DNA from: an uncultured Synechococcus sp.
GTDB lineage: Bacteria > Cyanobacteriota > Cyanobacteriia > PCC-6307 > Cyanobiaceae
Direction: 5' to 3'
Assembly: GCA_913050565.1 (NCBI GenBank)
Contig: CAJWZW010000007.1
Location: forward strand, 1-36,020
DNA: 36,020 nt
Shown here piece after piece: positions 26,889 through 35,902 of the stretch. The position numbers and the translations under genes were made by a program. The first letter of the stretch is position 1; the number at the start of each line of letters is the position of its first letter. The notes beneath the pieces were generated by a model. That model did no database searches. It was not told the DNA's origin and worked only from the letters and a program-made list of their open reading frames with translations.

Positions 26889-27677
26889 TCAACTGGATGC
26901 TGAGGTGTAAAAACGCAGCGCAAACAACCAGAACGAACGAGCTGCTGCAAAAAACACCACCGCCAACCCCAGTCCGGCCAGCAACATCGGCGTCCCTGCT
27001 GAATCGAGCAGCACCTTCGCTGGAATCGTGGTGAGGAAAGCCACAGGCAACACAAAGGTGAACAGCACTCGCAGGGCCGGTGGATAGGCGTTGAGGGGAT
27101 AGCGTCCAGAGGCCAGCAGAGCGCGCAACACCTCGGTGGCATTCCAGGTTTTGACGAACCAGATGCTTGTGGCGGCAATCAGAAACCACAGCGAATAAAG
27201 AATCAATCCACCCGCCAGCAGCATCACCAGGACGATGCACAGCGATGGAATCGTCAGCACCACACCGGCCTGAAGGCTGCCCCAGGCCAGCAGCCCCAGA
27301 CCGAGTCCGATCTCCGGCAATCCAGCGGGGGAAAGCGTTCTCAGTGACAGCCAGAACTGACTGTCGATCGGCTTCAACAGCACGAAATCGAGGGTCCCCT
27401 CCCGAACATGGGTGACGATCGCCCCAAGGTTCGGGCGCAACCAGGTGCTGGCCATGCCGTCGAACACGGTGTAGAGCCCCTGCACCATCAGGGCCTGGGC
27501 CCAGCTCCAACCTCCGAGGGTCTGATCGGGGCCGTAAAACAGCGATAAAAGGAACAGGCTTCCGCTGAGGCTCATCGCAACGGCCAGCAGCTCAATCAGA
27601 ACATTGGCCTGATACTCCAGCTGCACCGCCAGGGCGGTGCTCCAGAAGCGCCGCAGGGTTCGCCAGTAGCGCCCCAT
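26889..27677 (-). CDS. ABC-2 type exporter permease (DUF990 family), second subunit
   Basis: A 262-residue permease with about six hydrophobic helices. GRYWRTLRRFWSTALAVQLEYQANVLIELLA at the N-terminus and the motif VREGTLDFVLLKPIDSQFWLSLR in the first cytoplasmic loop are typical of the DUF990/ABC2_membrane_6 group. The ATG at 27677 overlaps the stop of the other permease gene by one base (TGATG), so the two subunits are probably made one to one and form a heterodimer. With the upstream ATPase it would form an ATP-driven exporter. In Synechocystis, ABC exporters of this type are linked to viologen resistance; here the substrate is unknown. The frame opens further upstream, but that stretch belongs to the other gene. 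Confidence 0.9.
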   Translation of the reverse strand: MGRYWRTLRRFWSTALAVQLEYQANVLIELLAVAMSLSGSLFLLSLFYGPDQTLGGWSWAQALMVQGLYTVFDGMASTWLRPNLGAIVTHVREGTLDFVLLKPIDSQFWLSLRTLSPAGLPEIGLGLGLLAWGSLQAGVVLTIPSLCIVLVMLLAGGLILYSLWFLIAATSIWFVKTWNATEVLRALLASGRYPLNAYPPALRVLFTFVLPVAFLTTIPAKVLLDSAGTPMLLAGLGLAVVFFAAARSFWLFALRFYTSASS

Positions 27678-28474
27678 CAGGCCCCCATGGCGCTGTAACG
27701 GCGCACGCCGGCCCGCCAAAGCACCAACACGAGGGGCAACAGCACGGCAATCCAGGCCAGCTGGGCCCCGAAGCCGGCCATCAGATCAACCGACTGCCCA
27801 GCCAGCACTCGAGCGGGGAAGTCGATCAGATAGGGGAAGGGAGTCCATTGCGCCCAGGCCCGCACCACCGGTGGGAAGGCGGAGAGCGGCGCCAGCAAAC
27901 CGGAGAGGAACACGAACGGGATGAACTGCAACCGCTCAAGAGCACTGGCCTTCTCACTCCAGAAGCACAGGGTTGCAATCAGGCTCTGGAACAAAAAGGC
28001 GATTGCGAATGCCAGCCAGGTGGCCAGCCAGGCCAGCAGGAATCCTCCTGGAGATGGCAACCAGAAGGTGGCGGGCTGGACCGCGAAAAACACCGCAGCG
28101 ATCAGGGCCGCAAAGGGCAGACGGGTGAGCTGCTCGCCGAGATGGGCGGCCACGTATCGCCAGAGCGGGTGCAATGGCTGCAGCAGATAGGGCGACAGCC
28201 TCCCCAGCAGAGCATCCTCCTCAAAGGCATACACCACCCACACCACTGAGAACTGCCGCACCAGATAGGCACTGAGGAAGTAGCGATCCAGCGCCACACC
28301 ATCCAGCCCCAACCCCGACCGCGCCTCACTGCCACTCCAGATGCTCAGCATGATGAACGGCAACACACCGGAGAGGGCCCAGAGGGCGATTTCAGCCCGG
28401 TACTCGAGCATGTGGGCGTACTGGGACCCCAGAAGAACGCGGATGATCCGCCGGTTGAGCCCGAAGATCCGCAT
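27677..28474 (-). CDS. ABC-2 type exporter permease (DUF990 family), first subunit
   Basis: A 265-residue permease with about six helices and the same family pattern: YAHMLEYRAEIALWALSGVLPFIMLSIW at the start, the coupling-loop motif EEDALLGRLSPYLLQPLHPLWRYVAAHLGEQ, and the final RRYSAMGA. It shares its first base with the ATPase stop (TGATG) and its stop with the second permease start, a chain of overlaps that indicates one mRNA and coupled translation. It is predicted in the plasma membrane. It is clearly paralogous in layout to its neighbour but differs in sequence, as is usual for heterodimeric exporters of this class. Confidence 0.9.
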   Translation of the reverse strand: MRIFGLNRRIIRVLLGSQYAHMLEYRAEIALWALSGVLPFIMLSIWSGSEARSGLGLDGVALDRYFLSAYLVRQFSVVWVVYAFEEDALLGRLSPYLLQPLHPLWRYVAAHLGEQLTRLPFAALIAAVFFAVQPATFWLPSPGGFLLAWLATWLAFAIAFLFQSLIATLCFWSEKASALERLQFIPFVFLSGLLAPLSAFPPVVRAWAQWTPFPYLIDFPARVLAGQSVDLMAGFGAQLAWIAVLLPLVLVLWRAGVRRYSAMGA

Positions 28475-29448
28475 CAGACGCGCCCCTGCCGGAACAACCC
28501 ACCGATCAGTTCCTCGATCGGTGGGTCGGTCACATCAAGGTCGCGCACCGGAAAGCGTTCCAGCAGCTGCGCCACCACCTCGGTGAGCTGATCCCGAGGG
28601 ACCAGCAGGCGCACCTCGCAGCCCTCCATCCGCTCGATGCGGCCAAAGCCAGCCAATGCTTCAGGCTCACCGGGCGATTCCAGCTCCAACCGCACTTCCC
28701 GCTCCGGCGCCAGCTGTTCAGCGAGACCCTCGAGCGGTCCGTCATGGAACAGACGCCCCTGGTGAATCAGCAGCACCCGGGGACAGAGGGCGGTGATGTC
28801 GGCCATGTAGTGGCTGGTGAGCAGCACCGTTGCCCCCGTGCGGCGGTTGTACTCCGCCAGAAACTGACGCACCCGGGCCTGGGCATTCACATCCAGTCCA
28901 AGGGTGGGTTCATCGAGAAACAGCACCTCCGGTTCATGCAGCAGTGCGGCGAGCAGTTCGGCCTTCATCCGCTGGCCCAGCGACAGCTTGCGTACCGGGC
29001 GGCTGAGTTCCTCCCCCAGCTCGAGCAGGTCGGCCAGATCGCGAATCCGCCGCTGCGCAACAGCTTCGGGAATGCCGTACACCGCCGCATTCACCCGCAG
29101 CGAATCCATCGGCGGCAGATCCCAGAGCAGCTGCTGCTTCTGCCCCATCACCAGCGTGATCCGGCGGAGAAAATCCGCCTGGCGCCGCTGAGGACTGAAC
29201 CCCGCCACCTCCACCCGTCCGCCACTGGGATGGATCAACCCGCAGAGCATTTTGAGCGTGGTGGTTTTGCCGGCCCCATTGGCCCCGAGAAAACCCACCA
29301 TCTCTCCTGGCTCGATTGAGAACGACACGTCCTGGACCGCCATCACATCCCGGGTACGACGGCGGACAAAGTGGCGCAGCGTGCCTGCAAAACCGGGCTG
29401 CTTCTCAGCAACCCGGTAGATCTTGTTCAGCCCATCAACCTGAATCAC
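28474..29448 (-). CDS. ABC exporter ATP-binding protein (ABC-2 type)
   Basis: A 324-residue nucleotide-binding subunit. It has Walker A GANGAGKT (55-62), the signature LSLGQRMKAEL (family variant of LSGGQ), Walker B VLFLDEPTLGLD and the switch His in LLTSHYMADI. The C-terminal 90 residues form the extension seen in drug/antibiotic and polysaccharide-type ABC-2 exporters. The start is a GTG at 29448, four bases after the valS stop, so it belongs to the same minus-strand run as valS. With the two DUF990-type permeases it makes a complete exporter. The nature of the exported molecule cannot be read from the sequence; lipids, drugs or viologen-like compounds are possible. Confidence 0.94.
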   Translation of the reverse strand: MIQVDGLNKIYRVAEKQPGFAGTLRHFVRRRTRDVMAVQDVSFSIEPGEMVGFLGANGAGKTTTLKMLCGLIHPSGGRVEVAGFSPQRRQADFLRRITLVMGQKQQLLWDLPPMDSLRVNAAVYGIPEAVAQRRIRDLADLLELGEELSRPVRKLSLGQRMKAELLAALLHEPEVLFLDEPTLGLDVNAQARVRQFLAEYNRRTGATVLLTSHYMADITALCPRVLLIHQGRLFHDGPLEGLAEQLAPEREVRLELESPGEPEALAGFGRIERMEGCEVRLLVPRDQLTEVVAQLLERFPVRDLDVTDPPIEELIGGLFRQGRV

Positions 29449-29452
29449 CGAT

Positions 29453-32197
29453 TCAGCTGAGGTCGGCCATGCGTTTGCGGGCCAGATCCGCCTGCGCTTG
29501 CTTCTCGGCCAGATTGGCCTGGCATTCCGCCACCACCTCCGGCGGCGCCTTATCAGCGAAGTTGGGATTGTTCAGCCGGCCGGCCAGGCCCTTGATCTCC
29601 TTCTCCGCCTTGGCGATGTCTTTCTCCAGACGGCCCTTGAGCGCCTCCAGATCCACCAGGCCCTCGATCGGTAACAGCACCTGAAGCTCACCGCTCACCC
29701 CCGCCAGAGCCTTGGCCACCGGCGCGGCATCGGCATCGGCGGGAGCCATCACCGCCACCGATTCAGCCCTGGTGAGAGCAGTGATGTCGGCCAGGCCCTG
29801 GGTGAGCACTTCAGCAAGCTCGCCGCGGCCGGTGACGAAACGCACCGGCACGGACTGCGAGGGTTTGAGCCCGGCGACCGCACGGAGGTTGCGCACCACG
29901 CGGATGGCGCCGATCAGTTCAGCGAAGGAGGATTCCAGCGCATCATCGAGAACGCTCTCATCCAGCGCCGGCCAGGGCTGCAACGCCAGGAACGTGGATT
30001 CGGATGCCGCGGTGACGCTGTGCCAGAGCTCCTCGGTGAGGTGGGGCATCAGCGGATGCAGCATCAGGTGCATCTGGCTGATCACCTTGGCCAGCACCTG
30101 CTTGGCCACCCGCTGATCGGCAAGGGCCTCAGCTGAGGGGTTCTCACCAGGGTTGAGCCGGCGCTTGCTCAGCTCCAGATACCAGTCGCAGACGTCGTTC
30201 CAGGCGAATTCGTACAGCCCTTTGGCCGCTTCACCCAGGGCATAACTGCTGTAGCGCTCGGCCGTCTCCCGGTTCACCCGGGCCAGACGGGAGAGGATCC
30301 AGCGGTCCGCCAGCTGCAGGGCAGCGGGGTCGGGATCACCGAGTTGGGCCGGCGTTTCGCCGCCCAGGTTCATCAACGCGAAACGGGTGGCGTTCCACAG
30401 CTTGTTGGCGAAGTTGCGCGAGGCCTCCACCGTGGCCGATGTGTCCTTCTTGCGGTCGTAATCCAGGCGGATGTCCTGCCCCGCACCGGCCACTTCCCGT
30501 ACCAGGGCGAAGCGCAGAGCATCGGTGCCGTAGCGGTCGATCAGCAGCAGCGGATCGATGCCGTTGCCGGCGCTCTTGCTCATCTTGCGGTTCTGCTCAT
30601 CCCGCACCAGGCCGTGGATGTAGACGTCCTTGAACGGCATCTCACCGGTGAAGGCGCCGGCCATCATCGTCATCCGGGCCACCCAGAAAAAAATGATGTC
30701 GAAACCCGTCACCAGCGTGCTGGTCGGGTACCAGCGCTGGAGATCGGCACTGTCGGCATCGGGCCAACCCAGGGTGGAGAAGGGCCAGAGGCCGCTGGAG
30801 AACCAGGTGTCGAGCACGTCTTCGTCCTGCTCGATCTCCGCCGCCGTGCCGTACTCAGCCTTGGCCTTCTCCAGGGCTTCGGCTTCGTTGCGGGCCACCA
30901 CGTAGGGCGTGGTGTCGGTGTACCTGCCACCGGTCTCGCTGATCACGAACCAGGCAGGAATGCGATGGCCCCACCAGAGCTGGCGGCTGATGCACCAGTC
31001 GCGGATGTCGGTGAGCCAGTCGCGGTACACCTTCTCCCAGCGCTCGGGGATGAAGCGGGGATCCTGCTTCTCAAGAGCTTCGCGGCAACGGGCCGCCATG
31101 GGCTCGGTCTTCACGAACCACTGGGTTGAGAGCAGGGGCTCCACCGGCACTTTGCCGCGGTCGGAATAGGGGACGCTGTGGCGGTAGTCCTCCACCTTCA
31201 CCAGCAGCCCCAGCTCCTCCAAACCGGCCACCACCGCCTTGCGGGCCTCGAAGCGATCCAGCCCTTCGAACTGACCGGCCTCTTTGTTCATCGTGCCGTT
31301 TTTGCGCATCACCGTGATCTGCGGCAGACCATGGCGCTGGCCGATGGCGAAATCGTTGGGATCGTGAGCGGGCGTCACCTTGACGCAACCGGTGCCGAAA
31401 TCCTTCTCCACGTGGTCGTCGGCCACGATCGGGATCTCCCGCCCCACAAAGGGAAGCGTCAGGGTCTGGCCCACCAGGTGGGCATAGCGTTCGTCGCTGG
31501 GATTCACCGCCACCGCCGTGTCGCCCAGCATCGTTTCGGGGCGGGTGGTGGCGACTTCCAGATAGCCCTCACCCCTGCTGAGTGGATAGCGGAAATGCCA
31601 GAGATGGCCATCCACCTCCTTCATCTCCACCTCCAGGTCACTCACCGCCGAACCGGAGGCGGGACACCAGTTCACGAGGTATTCACCGCGGTAGATCAGC
31701 CCCTGCTCGTGCAGGCGGACGAAGGCCTCCTTCACCGCTTCGCTCAGCCCCTCATCCAGGGTGAAGCGCTGTCGCCTCCAATCCACCGAGTAACCCAGGC
31801 GCCGCAGCTGGCCAACGATGCGCCCACCGCTTTCAGACTTCCATTGCCAGGCCCGCTCCAGAAACGCCTCTCGGCCGAGATCACGGCGTGTTTTGCCCTC
31901 CTCCTTCAGCTGCTTCTCGAGAATCGTCTGCACGGCAATGGACGCATGATCCGTACCGGGCAGGCAGAGCACATTTTTTCCAGCCAGGCGCTGGTAGCGA
32001 ACGATCGTGTCGATGAGCGCCGTGTTGAAGGCATGACCCATGTGCAGGCTGCCGGTGACGTTCGGTGGCGGTATCACCACAGAAAACGGATCGCCAGACG
32101 CCTGCGGATCAGGGTGGAATGCCCCCTGGTCCTCCCAGGCCTGCTGCCAACGCGCTTCCGTACCAACCGGGTCGTAGGTCTTGGCCAGTTCGGGCAC
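29453..32197 (-). CDS. valS: Valyl-tRNA synthetase
   Basis: A 914-residue class-I aminoacyl-tRNA synthetase of normal length. The HIGH motif is HMGH at residues 52-55 ([13 protein letters not shown]) and the KMSKS loop is in [14 protein letters not shown]. Between them lies the large editing domain that removes mischarged threonine ([17 protein letters not shown]). The C-terminal anticodon-binding domain is followed by a coiled-coil arm (about 860-914, [28 protein letters not shown]). It charges tRNA-Val in the cytosol. The start is a GTG at 32197 with no clear Shine-Dalgarno sequence, chosen for the family opening [16 protein letters not shown]. The ABC exporter genes follow immediately; the ubiquitous valS is an unusual head for an exporter unit. 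Confidence 0.97.
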
Positions 32198-32286: not shown

Positions 32287-33528
32287 ATGAACGCTGCGTT
32301 CAACCGATCGTTGCTCACAGGCCTGGCTTGCTGGTTGTTGAGCGGTTGCGGAGCGGTCAACGGGCCTGCCGTTGTGGACATCATCCGCACCATCGACAGA
32401 AGCGATGGCATCACCAGTGAGGACTATGACGAGCTGACCGACATCTCAGATCAGGTGTTCCGACAGATCCGGGACCTTGATCCACAGATCTACCCGCAGC
32501 TGACCCTGTTCACCAGCAGGAACTTTGTTCAGCACATCAATCAGCGAACCCAGAGTGGCTTCGGGCCAGACCTGATCGTCACCGACAGCGAGACAGCCCT
32601 GGAGCTCTACAGGCTCGACCTGATCGATCCGATCAGCCTCCCATTGAAGAACGGCCAGGACACGCCGCAAAGCTTTCTGGACCTTGTCACCGCGGAAGAC
32701 GGTGCCCTGGTCGCTCGGCCGGTGCAGCAGTTCGTGCAGCTCGCCTGCTTCAACAAGAGTCGACTCCCTGCCCCGCCAGGCAGCCTGAATGAACTGGCAC
32801 AGACCAGCAGCGATTCCACCTTCGGCCTGGCCATCCAGCTCAAAGACCTCTACTGGAGTGCTCAGGCTTTCAACGCCACCCCTGCTTTCCAAGCCGCTAT
32901 CAAGGGCTCAACCGTCAGTGATGAAAGTCGTGCCAGGGTCACGGCCTGGCTGCAATGGCTGGTGGGATCCAGTTATCAGCAGAACATTCGCTTTCTCAAC
33001 AGTCAGAAGCTCCTTCGCCAGGGCCTGATCAAGGGCGAACTGGACTGGATCACCTGCTGGAGCAGCAACCTGAAGCGACTGAAAGCGCAGATGGGTGACA
33101 ACCTCGGCATCGCAGCTCTTCCACAAGGCCCTGCAGAACGCCGCAGAGCTTCCACAAAGCTTGAGGTGTGGGCACTGGGGAAGAACTCCAGTCCACTTCA
33201 ACGACGTAAAGCCCTTGTGATGCTCGAGTTCATCACCAAACCCTGGGCACAGAAGACCTATTCCCTGATGAGCTCCAGCGCCATGCCCGTCAGCAAAAAG
33301 GCTGCCGCAATTGTTGCTTCCAAAATTCCTGGGGGCCGCGAAGCCCTGAACAACTTTGCCCAGTCCAATGAGAAGCGCCTGAAACCAGTTCGCGTGAAGG
33401 CTCTGATCTTCAGAGATCCCCTGAAATACGAAAAAGTCTCCGACGCTTTGCTCGACACCATCTATGACATTGCAACGCCGCAGGAGAGCACCAAAGCCAT
33501 TCTCAGAGATCTGAGGGAGGAGAACTGA
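32287..33528 (+). CDS. Lipoprotein resembling a family-1 extracellular solute-binding protein
   Basis: A 413-residue protein with a lipoprotein signal: a short basic start, a hydrophobic stretch (LLTGLACWLL) and a lipobox LSG-Cys21. The body has the two-lobe solute-binding-protein pattern: PDLIVTDSETALELYRLDLIDPISLP (about 94-119), PVQQFVQLACFNKSRL, then WLQWLVGSSYQQN and GELDWITCWSSNLKRLKAQMGDNLGIAALPQGP. It ends with WALGKNSSPLQRRKALVMLEFITKPWAQKTYSLMSSSAMPVSKKA, typical of sugar-type binding proteins. No ABC permease or ATPase is beside it. Instead its stop overlaps the start of an MscS channel gene (TGATG). It is therefore probably a periplasmic ligand sensor or regulator of that channel, which is inference. 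Ligand unknown. Confidence 0.85.
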   Translation: MNAAFNRSLLTGLACWLLSGCGAVNGPAVVDIIRTIDRSDGITSEDYDELTDISDQVFRQIRDLDPQIYPQLTLFTSRNFVQHINQRTQSGFGPDLIVTDSETALELYRLDLIDPISLPLKNGQDTPQSFLDLVTAEDGALVARPVQQFVQLACFNKSRLPAPPGSLNELAQTSSDSTFGLAIQLKDLYWSAQAFNATPAFQAAIKGSTVSDESRARVTAWLQWLVGSSYQQNIRFLNSQKLLRQGLIKGELDWITCWSSNLKRLKAQMGDNLGIAALPQGPAERRRASTKLEVWALGKNSSPLQRRKALVMLEFITKPWAQKTYSLMSSSAMPVSKKAAAIVASKIPGGREALNNFAQSNEKRLKPVRVKALIFRDPLKYEKVSDALLDTIYDIATPQESTKAILRDLREEN

Positions 33529-34841
33529 TGCTTGAGGCTCTGAGCCGAGAACTGATCACCTGGCTGGGCTACCTGCAACGAACCGCGGTGTTGGTGCAGG
33601 TGGCGATTGTGGTGATCACGGTGGTCCTGGACAAAAGGAGTCGATTGACCCGGAGAGTGAATTCCGAGTTTCTCCGCAGTGTGTCCCCCCTGATCGCTCC
33701 AGGACTCCTGATCCTGCTGGGCTTCGCGATGAAGTTGGTGGGTGTGCCTGGTGGCTATCTGCAGTACCTGGCACTGCTATGGCTGATCTGGCGCTTGATT
33801 GAACCAGCCAATTTGCTGCTGAGTCGGCGGTTCCCGAAGCTCCCTGTTGAAGAACTTGATCGATCGCTGTTCAGGCCGATTCTGCTGATCTTCTCCGTCC
33901 TGAGTTTTTTTCAGATCCTCGGCAGTCGTCAGTCTCTTTCGATCATTGAGATCGGAGAGGTTTTTGGGGTGACCCTCACCGTGGGCAAGCTCCTCACAGC
34001 CCTGGTGGTCACTTACCTGATCACCGCATACGCCCGCAGACCTGCGGCTTTTGTGGCATGGCTGGGGGGCTCATTCCTGGGTCTGAAGCCTCAGAGGCAA
34101 AGGGCGATGGAGGTGATTTTCCAGTACTCCGTGATCGCGATCGGGGTGATGGGAGTGGCTTATTACATCGGCATCAACGGCACTGCCCTGGTGGCGGTGG
34201 CCGGTGGCCTCTCGGTGGGCATCGGATTCGGCATCAAAGAGATCATCTCCAACTTCATCAGCAGTCTCTGGCTGCTGTTTGAAGGCTCTGTACGCCCGGG
34301 CGAAATCCTGATGATCAACGGAGATCCCTGCACGGTGCGGAAACTGGGGATGCGGGCCACCCAACTGCGCCGCGGCCGGGATGGAGCGGAACTGCTGATT
34401 CCCAATCAGAACTTCTTCACTCAGGAGGCCGAGTCGTACACCGCTGAGGAAACCTCACGCAGGGACGCTGTCGTGGTGGGAGCTGCGTACCACCATGAAC
34501 CTCGAGAGGTGATCGCAATCCTGGAAGCGGTCGCCAAGGAACACGAGAAAATTCTGTCTTACCCAGCCCCTGCTGCATTCACGATTGAATTCGCCGACTC
34601 CTCGATCAACTACAAGTTGCTGTTCTGGGTCCGGAACCCCCTCGATGCCTTCGGGGTTGGGAGCGATCTTCGCCAGGAGATCTGGACAGCCTTCGAAAAG
34701 AACGGGATCGGCATTCCCTTCCCCCAGCAACAGGTGTATCCGATGGAATGGCCTCCATCAAAAGACGAAACCCTTCGGATCGGTGGTTCACCCCGGCAGC
34801 TTCAGGCGGAAGAAACCGAATCAGCCGGCGAGACGCCTTAG
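33528..34841 (+). CDS. MscS-family mechanosensitive channel
   Basis: A 437-residue channel, larger than E. coli MscS because of extra N-terminal helices. About six hydrophobic segments (from about 17 to 214) precede the pore helix, ALVAVAGGLSVGIGFGIKEIISNFISSLWLLFEGSVRPGEIL (220-261), which carries the alternating Gly/Ala pattern and the conserved N-F-x-S. The beta domain (GDPCTVRKLGMRATQLRRGRDGAELLIPNQNF) and the alpha/beta vestibule domain follow. MscS channels open under membrane tension to release osmolytes; larger members may be ligand-gated. The ATG overlaps the lipoprotein stop by one base, so the two proteins are co-translated. The last 21 bases overlap the convergent oxygenase gene. 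Confidence 0.93.
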   Translation: MLEALSRELITWLGYLQRTAVLVQVAIVVITVVLDKRSRLTRRVNSEFLRSVSPLIAPGLLILLGFAMKLVGVPGGYLQYLALLWLIWRLIEPANLLLSRRFPKLPVEELDRSLFRPILLIFSVLSFFQILGSRQSLSIIEIGEVFGVTLTVGKLLTALVVTYLITAYARRPAAFVAWLGGSFLGLKPQRQRAMEVIFQYSVIAIGVMGVAYYIGINGTALVAVAGGLSVGIGFGIKEIISNFISSLWLLFEGSVRPGEILMINGDPCTVRKLGMRATQLRRGRDGAELLIPNQNFFTQEAESYTAEETSRRDAVVVGAAYHHEPREVIAILEAVAKEHEKILSYPAPAAFTIEFADSSINYKLLFWVRNPLDAFGVGSDLRQEIWTAFEKNGIGIPFPQQQVYPMEWPPSKDETLRIGGSPRQLQAEETESAGETP

Positions 34842-35444
34842 GTAGTCAGCCTGTCTTCCGGCATTGATCCAACCGGTGGCGATCAGTTTGCTGTCTGATT
34901 CACTCACCCTTCCGCGGTGAATGTGAGAAGGGCCAGCGGGAAACACCACCAGCTTGCCCCGCTCGGCCGGTTCATGGTGATCCTGCCAGTGGAATTCGGT
35001 GCCCGCCTCATCCACGTCGTTGCAGTAGAGAATCCAGGCGAGCACACGGTGAACAGGTTCAGTGGCCTCATTGCTGATGGTCCAGTCGCAATGCCACCGC
35101 TTGAAACCTTCGCCTGGGGCGTAGTGCTGAAGGTTGAAAATCGGATTCACAAACAGGCTCTGATCCGGGCAGCACTCCTGGAACTTGGGCCGCTCCTGCA
35201 GGTAACGCTGCAACCCGGCGGTGACCCCTCGCAGCACCAACTGCGCCAGAGCAAAGGACTCCGGTTCGGAGCGATCGATCGCCACCAGGCTGATGTCGGT
35301 GCTCTCTTTGGCCGGCTGTTCATCCCCTGCCGATCCGAAGGCCACACCAGCTCGCCTCAGATCATCCCGGCGACCGTAGAACTCAACAACGGCATCGGCC
35401 ACGGCCTCAAAGCCCGCATTGCGATAACTCCCGATCAGATTCAT
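34821..35444 (-). CDS. 2-oxoglutarate/Fe(II)-dependent oxygenase-like (prolyl 4-hydroxylase-like) protein
   Basis: A 207-residue protein from the ATG at 35444; the longer frame to 35495 has Cys/Arg-rich junk and overlaps the next gene. The double-stranded beta-helix metal site is visible: His118-x-Asp120 in YAPGEGFKRWHCDW, and a distal His174 or His176 in FPAGPSHIHRGRV, with basic residues after it to bind 2-oxoglutarate. NLQHYAPGEGFKRWH is typical of P4H-like dioxygenases. These hydroxylate proteins or small molecules using O2, Fe(II) and 2-oxoglutarate in the cytosol; the substrate is unknown. It overlaps the upstream unknown gene by four bases (ATGA) and the 3' end of the convergent MscS gene by 21 bases. 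Confidence 0.86.
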   Translation of the reverse strand: MNLIGSYRNAGFEAVADAVVEFYGRRDDLRRAGVAFGSAGDEQPAKESTDISLVAIDRSEPESFALAQLVLRGVTAGLQRYLQERPKFQECCPDQSLFVNPIFNLQHYAPGEGFKRWHCDWTISNEATEPVHRVLAWILYCNDVDEAGTEFHWQDHHEPAERGKLVVFPAGPSHIHRGRVSESDSKLIATGWINAGRQADYLRRLAG

Positions 35445-35902
35445 GGGTCTGCGGCCAGTCGTGGAACGGCCACAACGGCATCCAGCACCTGCCATCGGCT
35501 GCGATCAGCCACCACCAGGCCTTGCAGCTGCACCCGCTCGATCACCGCTGCAGCGCGTTCGACATCGAGGGGGACGCCGGGTCCCATCGGCAACACCAGC
35601 ACCTGCTGTTCAGCTGGATCAGCCATCACCTGAAGATCCAGATCCTCGAGCTCCCGCTCGAAGAACACCCGTCGCATCCGGGTGGTCACCGTGGAGCCCA
35701 GAGCCTCGACGAAACGGGCCATCCCTGCCTCATCCCCCGAGCATCCGCAATTGAGTGACAACCAGATCAGCAGCTTCACCCAGCTGTCCACCGTCCACAA
35801 CGGCTGAAAGCTGCCCCTGTGCTGGCGCACCAGTTCTCCAATGGCAAAGTCAAACAACGTGGCCTGAAGGCCGGTGGAATCAGCGGAATCCATGCTTTCC
35901 AT
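35441..35902 (-). CDS. Protein of unknown function (about 153 aa)
   Basis: A protein of about 153 residues from the ATG at 35902, or 150 from the ATG at 35893. AAGGAG lies 3 and 12 bases upstream of them respectively, so the choice is open. It begins with an acidic stretch, then a Trp-rich helical block (ATLFDFAIGELVRQHRGSFQPLWTVDSWVKLLIWLSLNCGCSGDE), a helix (ARFVEALGSTVTTRMRRVFFERELEDLDLQVMAD), and beta-like segments (AEQQVLVLPMGPGVPLD, LQGLVVADRSRWQVLDAVVAVPRL). There is no signal peptide and no recognised family. Its stop overlaps the oxygenase start by four bases (ATGA), pointing to a two-gene unit. Confidence 0.75.
   Translation of the reverse strand: MESMDSADSTGLQATLFDFAIGELVRQHRGSFQPLWTVDSWVKLLIWLSLNCGCSGDEAGMARFVEALGSTVTTRMRRVFFERELEDLDLQVMADPAEQQVLVLPMGPGVPLDVERAAAVIERVQLQGLVVADRSRWQVLDAVVAVPRLAADP

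Follow-up and report, generated by a model that had tools for sequence, protein, structure and literature searches.

A solute-binding lipoprotein gene paired with an MscS-family channel gene in Synechococcus and other cyanobacteria

A lipoprotein gene overlaps a channel gene

We analyzed a 36,020-nucleotide stretch from an uncultured Synechococcus sp. (GenBank assembly GCA_913050565.1, contig CAJWZW010000007.1, positions 1 to 36,020; "the window" below), in which the gene for a lipoprotein of the solute-binding-protein (SBP) type overlaps the gene for an MscS-family channel. The host assembly has 127 contigs and 1.78 Mb and is about 87% complete. Our own handles are L for loci, G for genomes, C for contigs and f for families. 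The pair consists of the following features.

32287..33528, + strand: SBP-type lipoprotein, 413 amino acids (aa), PF13416, MalE-like two-lobe fold
32338..32349, + strand: lipobox LSGC with Cys21; the Cys21 column is kept in at least 90% of 72 aligned sequences
33526..33530, + strand: TGATG stop/start overlap of the SBP and channel open reading frames (ORFs), one base shared
33528..34841, + strand: MscS-family channel, 437 aa, seven predicted transmembrane (TM) helices; closest solved-structure match by sequence is E. coli MscK
33528..34088, + strand: N-terminal extension of the channel, residues 1-187, with a predicted periplasmic helix 2-16, five TM helices and a predicted periplasmic loop 131-151 with a beta hairpin
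33561..33599, + strand: WxGYLxRxxVxxQ signature, channel residues 12-24, at the predicted periplasmic N-terminus and TM1
34089..34727, + strand: MscS core, residues 188-400, with a TM2/TM3-like pair, a beta domain and an alpha/beta domain

The SBP ORF begins with MNAAFNRSLLTGLACWLLSGC, a lipobox-containing N-terminus with Cys21 as the lipid acceptor. Pfam assigned the protein to SBP_bac_8 (2.1e-15, 57.7 bits against a cut-off of 27), and no NCBIfam model matched it at 0.001. Its AlphaFold2 model (pLDDT 88, pTM 0.85) was aligned by VIA-align to GacH (Z 35.5, rmsd 3.3 A, 361 residues), maltose-bound MalE3 (Z 35.2, 3.7 A, 360 residues) and the T. litoralis trehalose/maltose SBP (TMBP; Z 34.1), where rows differing by less than 1 in Z are ties. 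The window SBP therefore combines the two-lobe fold and family profile of a MalE-like SBP with a lipoprotein signal. Cys154 and Cys257 were invariant in all three alignments (45, 72 and 25 sequences), and from this invariance we would guess that they form a disulfide.

Domain searches placed the channel in the MscS superfamily, and opening by membrane tension is predicted from this content. Pfam matched MS_channel_3rd (6.2e-16) and MS_channel_2nd (1.2e-9), with MS_channel_1st slightly below its cut-off (1.2e-4, 22.4 bits against 23.1). The MscS beta and C-terminal domains pass their curated cut-offs (PF00924, 38.6 bits against 20.2; PF21082, 59 bits against 21). The MscK equivalog model NF008438 of NCBIfam reached 132.5 bits against a cut-off of 991, over residues 149-404 only, so the channel falls outside that equivalog.

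An earlier note on this DNA, made from the letters alone, had described a lipobox protein with a sugar-type two-lobe fold that shares a TGATG overlap with an MscS channel carrying extra N-terminal helices. The ORFs, the lipobox, the Pfam matches and the SBP model bear out this description. The extra channel part comprises about 187 residues, with five TM helices ahead of the TM2/TM3-like pair.

The two genes are adjacent and are lost together

The SBP was detected in 118 of the 299 genomes of the order (0.001) and the channel likewise in 118 (E up to 1e-30), with both in 117 (hypergeometric 3.6e-82, kinship ignored). Both discordant genomes hold remnants, which points to paired loss of the SBP and the channel: G058 has an N-terminal SBP piece beside a valS-length ORF, and G029 retains only the last 79 channel positions. 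Among the matches listed, 146 of 150 SBP matches had the channel directly downstream on the same strand (130, plus 9 from the DNA, 1 from match rows and a further 6). Of the remaining four, three belong to a single broken SBP in G035, behind which a channel follows, and the fourth lies at a contig end (G101).

The reverse direction gave a similar picture. From a channel scan that spanned all genome contigs, the best 80 of 407 were taken, and an SBP lay upstream in 76 of these 80 named loci (73 by script, plus L157, L161 and L164, where a long open frame masked the channel start). Three of the other four are cut by contig ends, and the fourth is internally deleted: at L106:5568-6535 the deletion fuses SBP residues 1-46 to channel residues 161-437. 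The junctions of 74 named-locus pairs were a 4-base overlap (58), a 1-base overlap (4) or a gap of 8-56 bases (12). The named loci nearest to the host pair are Synechococcus sp. records with a channel identity of 87%.

A single ORF that fuses the whole SBP to the channel, which the earlier note had suggested looking for in cyanobacterial genomes, was found neither among the 80 named loci nor in the other ORF listings examined; the 148-pair set used below excluded fusions by rule and is uninformative on this point. Two long open frames (783 aa in G183, 785 aa in G156) were rejected as fusions, as they extend upstream of the SBP and the channel lies in a different frame.

Two loci titled as metagenome-assembled genomes of Rhodopirellula (L102) and Bifidobacterium breve (L124) hold Synechococcus/Cyanobium-like pairs and are probably mis-binned contigs.

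Paralogous pairs diverge in step

Tree distances of SBPs and channels were correlated over 148 non-identical pairs (r 0.88; incomplete genes removed first), a value that could be explained by shared ancestry alone. Nine loci carry two or three paralogous pairs, with up to three inside 20 kb (L044-L047). Within these loci the correlation was r 0.79, and 2000 partner shuffles within the nine loci gave a mean r of 0.05 and a maximum of 0.55. SBP paralogues within one locus show 26-56% identity to the window SBP. The gene pair, its near-exclusive adjacency, its paired loss and the co-evolution of its paralogues establish a genomic association of the SBP with the channel.

L044-L048, L104, L105, L107-L109 and L121 contain an extra MscS-like frame that does not belong to the linked clade and is about 375-390 aa long. 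In that sub-lineage it sits directly after or near the linked channel.

The pair travels alone beyond the family

A profile built from 72 SBPs was searched over 388 genomes of the class and matched in 59 of them at 1e-8. Twenty strong matches lay outside the family (E up to 1e-37), and at 17 of the 18 loci examined the channel was next downstream on the same strand; the contig of the remaining one, L206, stops inside the SBP. Ten further matches outside the family were weak and partial (E 6e-9 to 1e-12), and none of five examined 14 kb stretches around them had the channel. Adjacency is thus not restricted to a few strains, and is present across the order and in other cyanobacterial families. 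No SBP relative was found on plasmids at 1e-5, and beyond cyanobacteria the SBP search covered plasmids only.

The genes around the distant pairs include those for a ResB protein, deoxyhypusine synthase, porphobilinogen deaminase, a lipoyl ligase, AraC regulators and a proton-antiporter subunit. These neighbours vary between loci, so among the genes tested only the SBP and the channel travel together. A third conserved partner was sought and rejected: only small clusters recur over the 18 distant loci, and the sole member tested of the largest (8 of 18) is a DUF1400 hydrolase. The neighbours in the window are those named in the earlier note, valS and an oxygenase; over the 160 pair loci used for their counts, short loci were scored as misses.

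29453..32197, - strand: valS, divergent neighbour, match in 61/160 pair loci and 0/18 distant loci
34821..35495, - strand: 2OG-Fe(II) oxygenase, convergent neighbour, match in 39/160 pair loci and 0/18 distant loci

This pattern makes it very unlikely that the protein is an ordinary SBP of an ATP-binding cassette (ABC) transporter with its permease elsewhere and the channel merely a co-regulated neighbour. The two-gene linkage holds while other neighbours change, and loss and paralogy are both paired. In favour of an ordinary SBP, PF13416 is an ABC-SBP family, and passages of a review of picocyanobacterial SBPs describe orphan urtA, an SBP without a linked permease (PMC8786288). No member of this SBP clade was seen beside a MalFG permease without the channel, in loci mostly from cyanobacteria with the pair.

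In two lineages a TM helix appears to have moved to the SBP

Two loci from families f15 (L219) and f12 (L221) have a different gene structure.

L219:8367-10109 and L221:8903-10633: globin-ended MscS channels (PF00042) overlapping a TM-tailed SBP

Their SBP ORFs are 474 and 493 aa long, including the stop/last residue, and end in a TM helix, and the channel ORF overlaps the SBP ORF by 61 bases. The channels have six TM segments (hydropathy at least 1.5) ahead of the globin part, and the channel-profile match begins only at position 42 (L219) and 30 (L221). The SBP tail carries LRRPxxxxQ, as seen when the tail MLRRPIILVQIVLFIVVLTLTWLVA is compared with the channel start of L207, ILQRPAVQVQLLAIAISIFITWIVS. 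Taking the tail's position and motif together with the topology and the absent channel helix, we find it simplest to assume that TM1 was transferred to the SBP. Beyond residue 330, the hydropathy cut is exceeded in five of 148 SBPs; three of them reach about 1.7 in the folded part, and the L219 and L221 tails reach 2.4 and 2.9. None of 1000 class-preserving shuffles reached the tail similarity for L219. In G592, a profile of the two SBP sequences crosses two stop codons to position 481, covering the start of the same-frame channel ORF.

The L219 and L221 channels have C-terminal globin domains (PF00042, 1.8e-16 and 5.4e-17), and a globin-coupled MscS channel would be a finding in its own right.

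Adjacency throughout the lineage, joint loss, co-evolving paralogues and the split-fusion-like SBP tail all argue that the SBP is very probably a dedicated partner of the channel, as the earlier note had proposed, and not part of an ABC importer.

The channel N-terminus is a candidate docking site

The AlphaFold2 model of the channel monomer includes helices at 2-16, 19-41, 47-70, 76-101, 107-130, 152-168, 188-214 and 218-232, and a hydropathy scan at 1.2 found seven TM segments. Over 72 channel sequences, loops 36-47 (+3.7), 98-108 (+0.8) and 168-188 (+0.9) had positive mean charges, and loop 130-151 was negative (-2.3). These charges place the channel N-terminus and loop 131-151, by prediction, in the periplasm. 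Conservation of the N-terminal helix averaged 0.59, versus 0.29-0.51 for stretches from TM1 to loop 102-106.

The core of the signature (hydrophobic-x-R-x-x-[VI]-x-x-Q) was matched by pattern in 144 of 148 SBP-linked channels. The L219 hit is due to chance, as that channel lacks TM1, which leaves a true count of 143. The core was absent from all 25 unlinked MscS ORFs, a set drawn from 35 by excluding five linked-clade genes cut by contig ends or the L106 deletion, the G029 remnant, a split piece, a short frame and two duplicates. Two of the five excluded linked-clade genes, L096 and L102, have the fuller motif; the 25 include one C-terminal fragment, L040, and count WH7803 twice. The signature suggests a candidate docking site for the SBP, though it is also a clade marker.

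ABC transporter genes near the pair are occasional

The earlier note had seen no permease or ATPase nearby. This stands for importer-type permeases, none of which is on the contig, and fails for an ABC set beyond valS, which is of exporter type (ABC-2).

26889-29448 of the window, - strand: ABC-2 set adjoining valS, with an ATPase (28474-29448) and two ABC2_membrane_6 proteins

WH7803 also has an ABC2_membrane_6 protein near a valS-length ORF.

PF00528 importer permeases (0.001) numbered 14 in the host genome and none on the contig of the pair, where no linked importer permease and ATPase were found. Two further PF13416 matches in the host lie on contigs C5 and C26. None of the three scanned neighbours of the C26 match was an importer gene. 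The gene run on C5 indicates an osmolyte-type importer in the host that comes with an SBP of its own.

L234:4940-10374 (G000:C5): osmolyte-type operon with a GT20 synthase, an SBP, two importer permeases and an ATPase with TOBE

The absence of a partner permease on the host contig does not extend to every genome: WH7803 and G261 have a permease and an ATPase beside the pair, and G097, a relative of WH7803, has the remains of both.

L048:1229-8086 (Synechococcus sp. WH7803, assigned by its identity with L105): permease with two BPD domains, AAA_assoc_C ATPase, SBP, MscS channel and a second MscS-like protein (354 aa)

In this row of WH7803, a strain with two SBP-channel pairs, 4-base overlaps join permease to ATPase and ATPase to SBP. 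The permease and ATPase are nitrate/sulfonate-transporter-like, not MalFGK. G097 (L238:5854-9566) retains remains of the same two genes just upstream of the pair. G261 (L237:6438-12183) has the order SBP, channel, permease and AAA_assoc_C ATPase, unlike WH7803, with a PhoX-type phosphatase on the opposite strand beyond the ATPase. At the distant locus L213, a PF00528 permease lies two genes upstream, past an alcohol dehydrogenase. The two ABC arrangements hint either that the SBP sometimes serves an importer or that the pair has recruited one.

The idea that importer genes regularly accompany the pair was rejected by a sweep of 237 loci (L036-L272), in which the WH7803-type permease occurred only in L048 and L105 (both WH7803), L237 and L238. 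Whole-ATPase matches occurred in many of these loci, mostly at 25-29% identity; some at 35-42% were at least 3 kb from the pair (L071, L079, L084, L087), or about 5 kb in L064. Other importer permeases were looked for as PF00528 in 11 genomes, and among the matches listed WH7803's alone was near a pair. ATPases with the PF09821 domain were found in 19 of the 299 order genomes and not in the host.

These genes bear on an alternative in which the channel frees osmolytes on down-shock and the SBP captures them for re-import by an ABC transporter elsewhere. Such a cycle would fit with two proteins translated from overlapping genes, with the C5 operon of the host and with the ABC genes adjoining the pair in three genomes. 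However, the C5 importer has its own SBP, the WH7803 genes are not of the MalFGK type, PF09821 ATPases are confined to a minority of the order that does not include the host, and a TM1-like helix on the SBP would be unexpected. We consider this alternative unlikely.

A possible solute-tuned mechanosensitive channel

We lean slightly towards a single device, an MscK-like seven-TM channel with a dedicated SBP lipoprotein subunit through which a solute would shift the opening tension. Solved MscS and MscK entries have seven chains each (heptamers). The SBP would be held by its lipid anchor on the periplasmic side of the plasma membrane and would dock on the periplasmic N-terminal helix and TM1 of the channel. 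Binding of a solute would open or close the SBP lobes and thereby shift the tension at which the channel opens, and osmolyte release would then be governed by membrane tension and periplasmic solute together. Docking (outside the two split-fusion genomes), ligand binding and the effect on gating are what we infer from the genomic and structural comparisons. Glucosylglycerate, the ligand offered as an example in the earlier note, received no support in this analysis.

The SBP fold could instead act as a structural cap or tether without a small ligand, shaping the vestibule, anchoring the channel or replacing the N-terminal part of MscK or MscM. Both of those proteins have large N-terminal parts, as the channel matches start at residue 831 of 1120 and 806 of 1113. 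We take the maltodextrin contacts of the maltose-binding protein (MBP) to be W62, D65, R66 and E111; in a profile alignment of low identity their equivalents appear replaced in the SBP, and such contacts differ among SBPs. The replacements would favour a cap or tether, as does the structural look of the best-conserved SBP residues (Pro, Gly, Trp and two Cys). Against it, the full-length two-lobe fold is retained, several sugar SBPs with a bound ligand align to it at Z above 33, and the wide divergence of SBPs within one locus fits differing ligands. A purely structural role thus appears fairly unlikely.

Several observations weigh against the solute-tuned device, including the apparent replacement of the MBP contacts, the ABC genes beside the pair in WH7803, G097 and G261, and the permease two genes upstream in L213. 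In G035 (L042:8599-9838, a one-contig genome), the SBP is spread over three frames and the channel ORF is intact. This is either decay or sequencing error; unless it is the latter, the channel may persist alone. Nearest-partner choice among the paralogues agreed in 134 of 176 cases against 75 expected, and hence not in all. The channel monomer model is only fair (pLDDT 78, pTM 0.47), and its TM-score to whole MscK chains is at most 0.35. An SBP with a TM-helix tail occurs in just 2 of the 388 class genomes. Its match to the channel profile has an i-E of 0.043 and ranks below other rows by whole-sequence E-value. For L221, 12 of 1000 shuffles reached the tail similarity, and the best local alignment lies outside the motif register. 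Other channel segments scored as high in 8 and 11 of 618 cases, those near residue 45 overlapping the compared N-termini.

A broader version of the solute-tuned device is possible, and we hold it more tentatively: a class of two-subunit solute-gated channels with tandem pairs of diverging specificity, which in two lineages would combine a TM1-joined SBP with a cytoplasmic globin and so receive solute, tension and haem inputs.

Comparison with known systems

SBPs are textbook importer parts, and MscS channels are tension valves. In GluR0, a single polypeptide carries both the pore of a potassium channel and a binding domain of the amino-acid type. In the cyclic-nucleotide-gated MscS relatives (bCNG), the sensor is cytoplasmic and fused.

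MscK and MscM of E. coli are the closest solved-structure matches of the channel by sequence, with MscK at 6e-32 over residues 140-404. MscK (KefA) also has extra TM helices before its MscS core and gave the top Foldseek rows. Its large N-terminal part is missing here, and a separate lipoprotein is encoded upstream instead. The SBP resembles the ABC-importer SBPs MalE3, GacH and TMBP in fold (Z 34.1 to 35.5), lipobox and PF13416, but its partner gene is a channel, its contig has no MalF/MalG-type permease and the MBP contacts appear not to be kept. The prokaryotic ligand-gated channels of the GluR0 type follow a similar principle, an ion channel under the control of a binding-protein fold; in contrast, the genes here are separate ORFs, not a single polypeptide, and encode an MscS pore and a sugar-type SBP. 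The bCNG proteins likewise combine an MscS-type pore with a sensor, whereas the sensor here is a separate gene product predicted to be periplasmic.

Our literature searches, made in open PubMed Central papers, found no report of an SBP lipoprotein paired with an MscS channel. The words "mechanosensitive" and "MscS" do not occur in the picocyanobacterial SBP review (PMC8786288). A cAMP-regulated MscS is on record in passages of PMC7522525. Picocyanobacterial MscS gene variants have been tied to low salinity, in passages that name no partner (PMC7522525, PMC9361551). MscS channels, SBPs and channels fused to a binding domain are each familiar as kinds of protein.

If the proposed device is real, osmotic release would gain a chemical input through a conserved SBP-channel unit, which might also offer a reason for the differing numbers of MscS genes among related picocyanobacteria. 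It would add an in-trans SBP class to the ligand-regulated channels.

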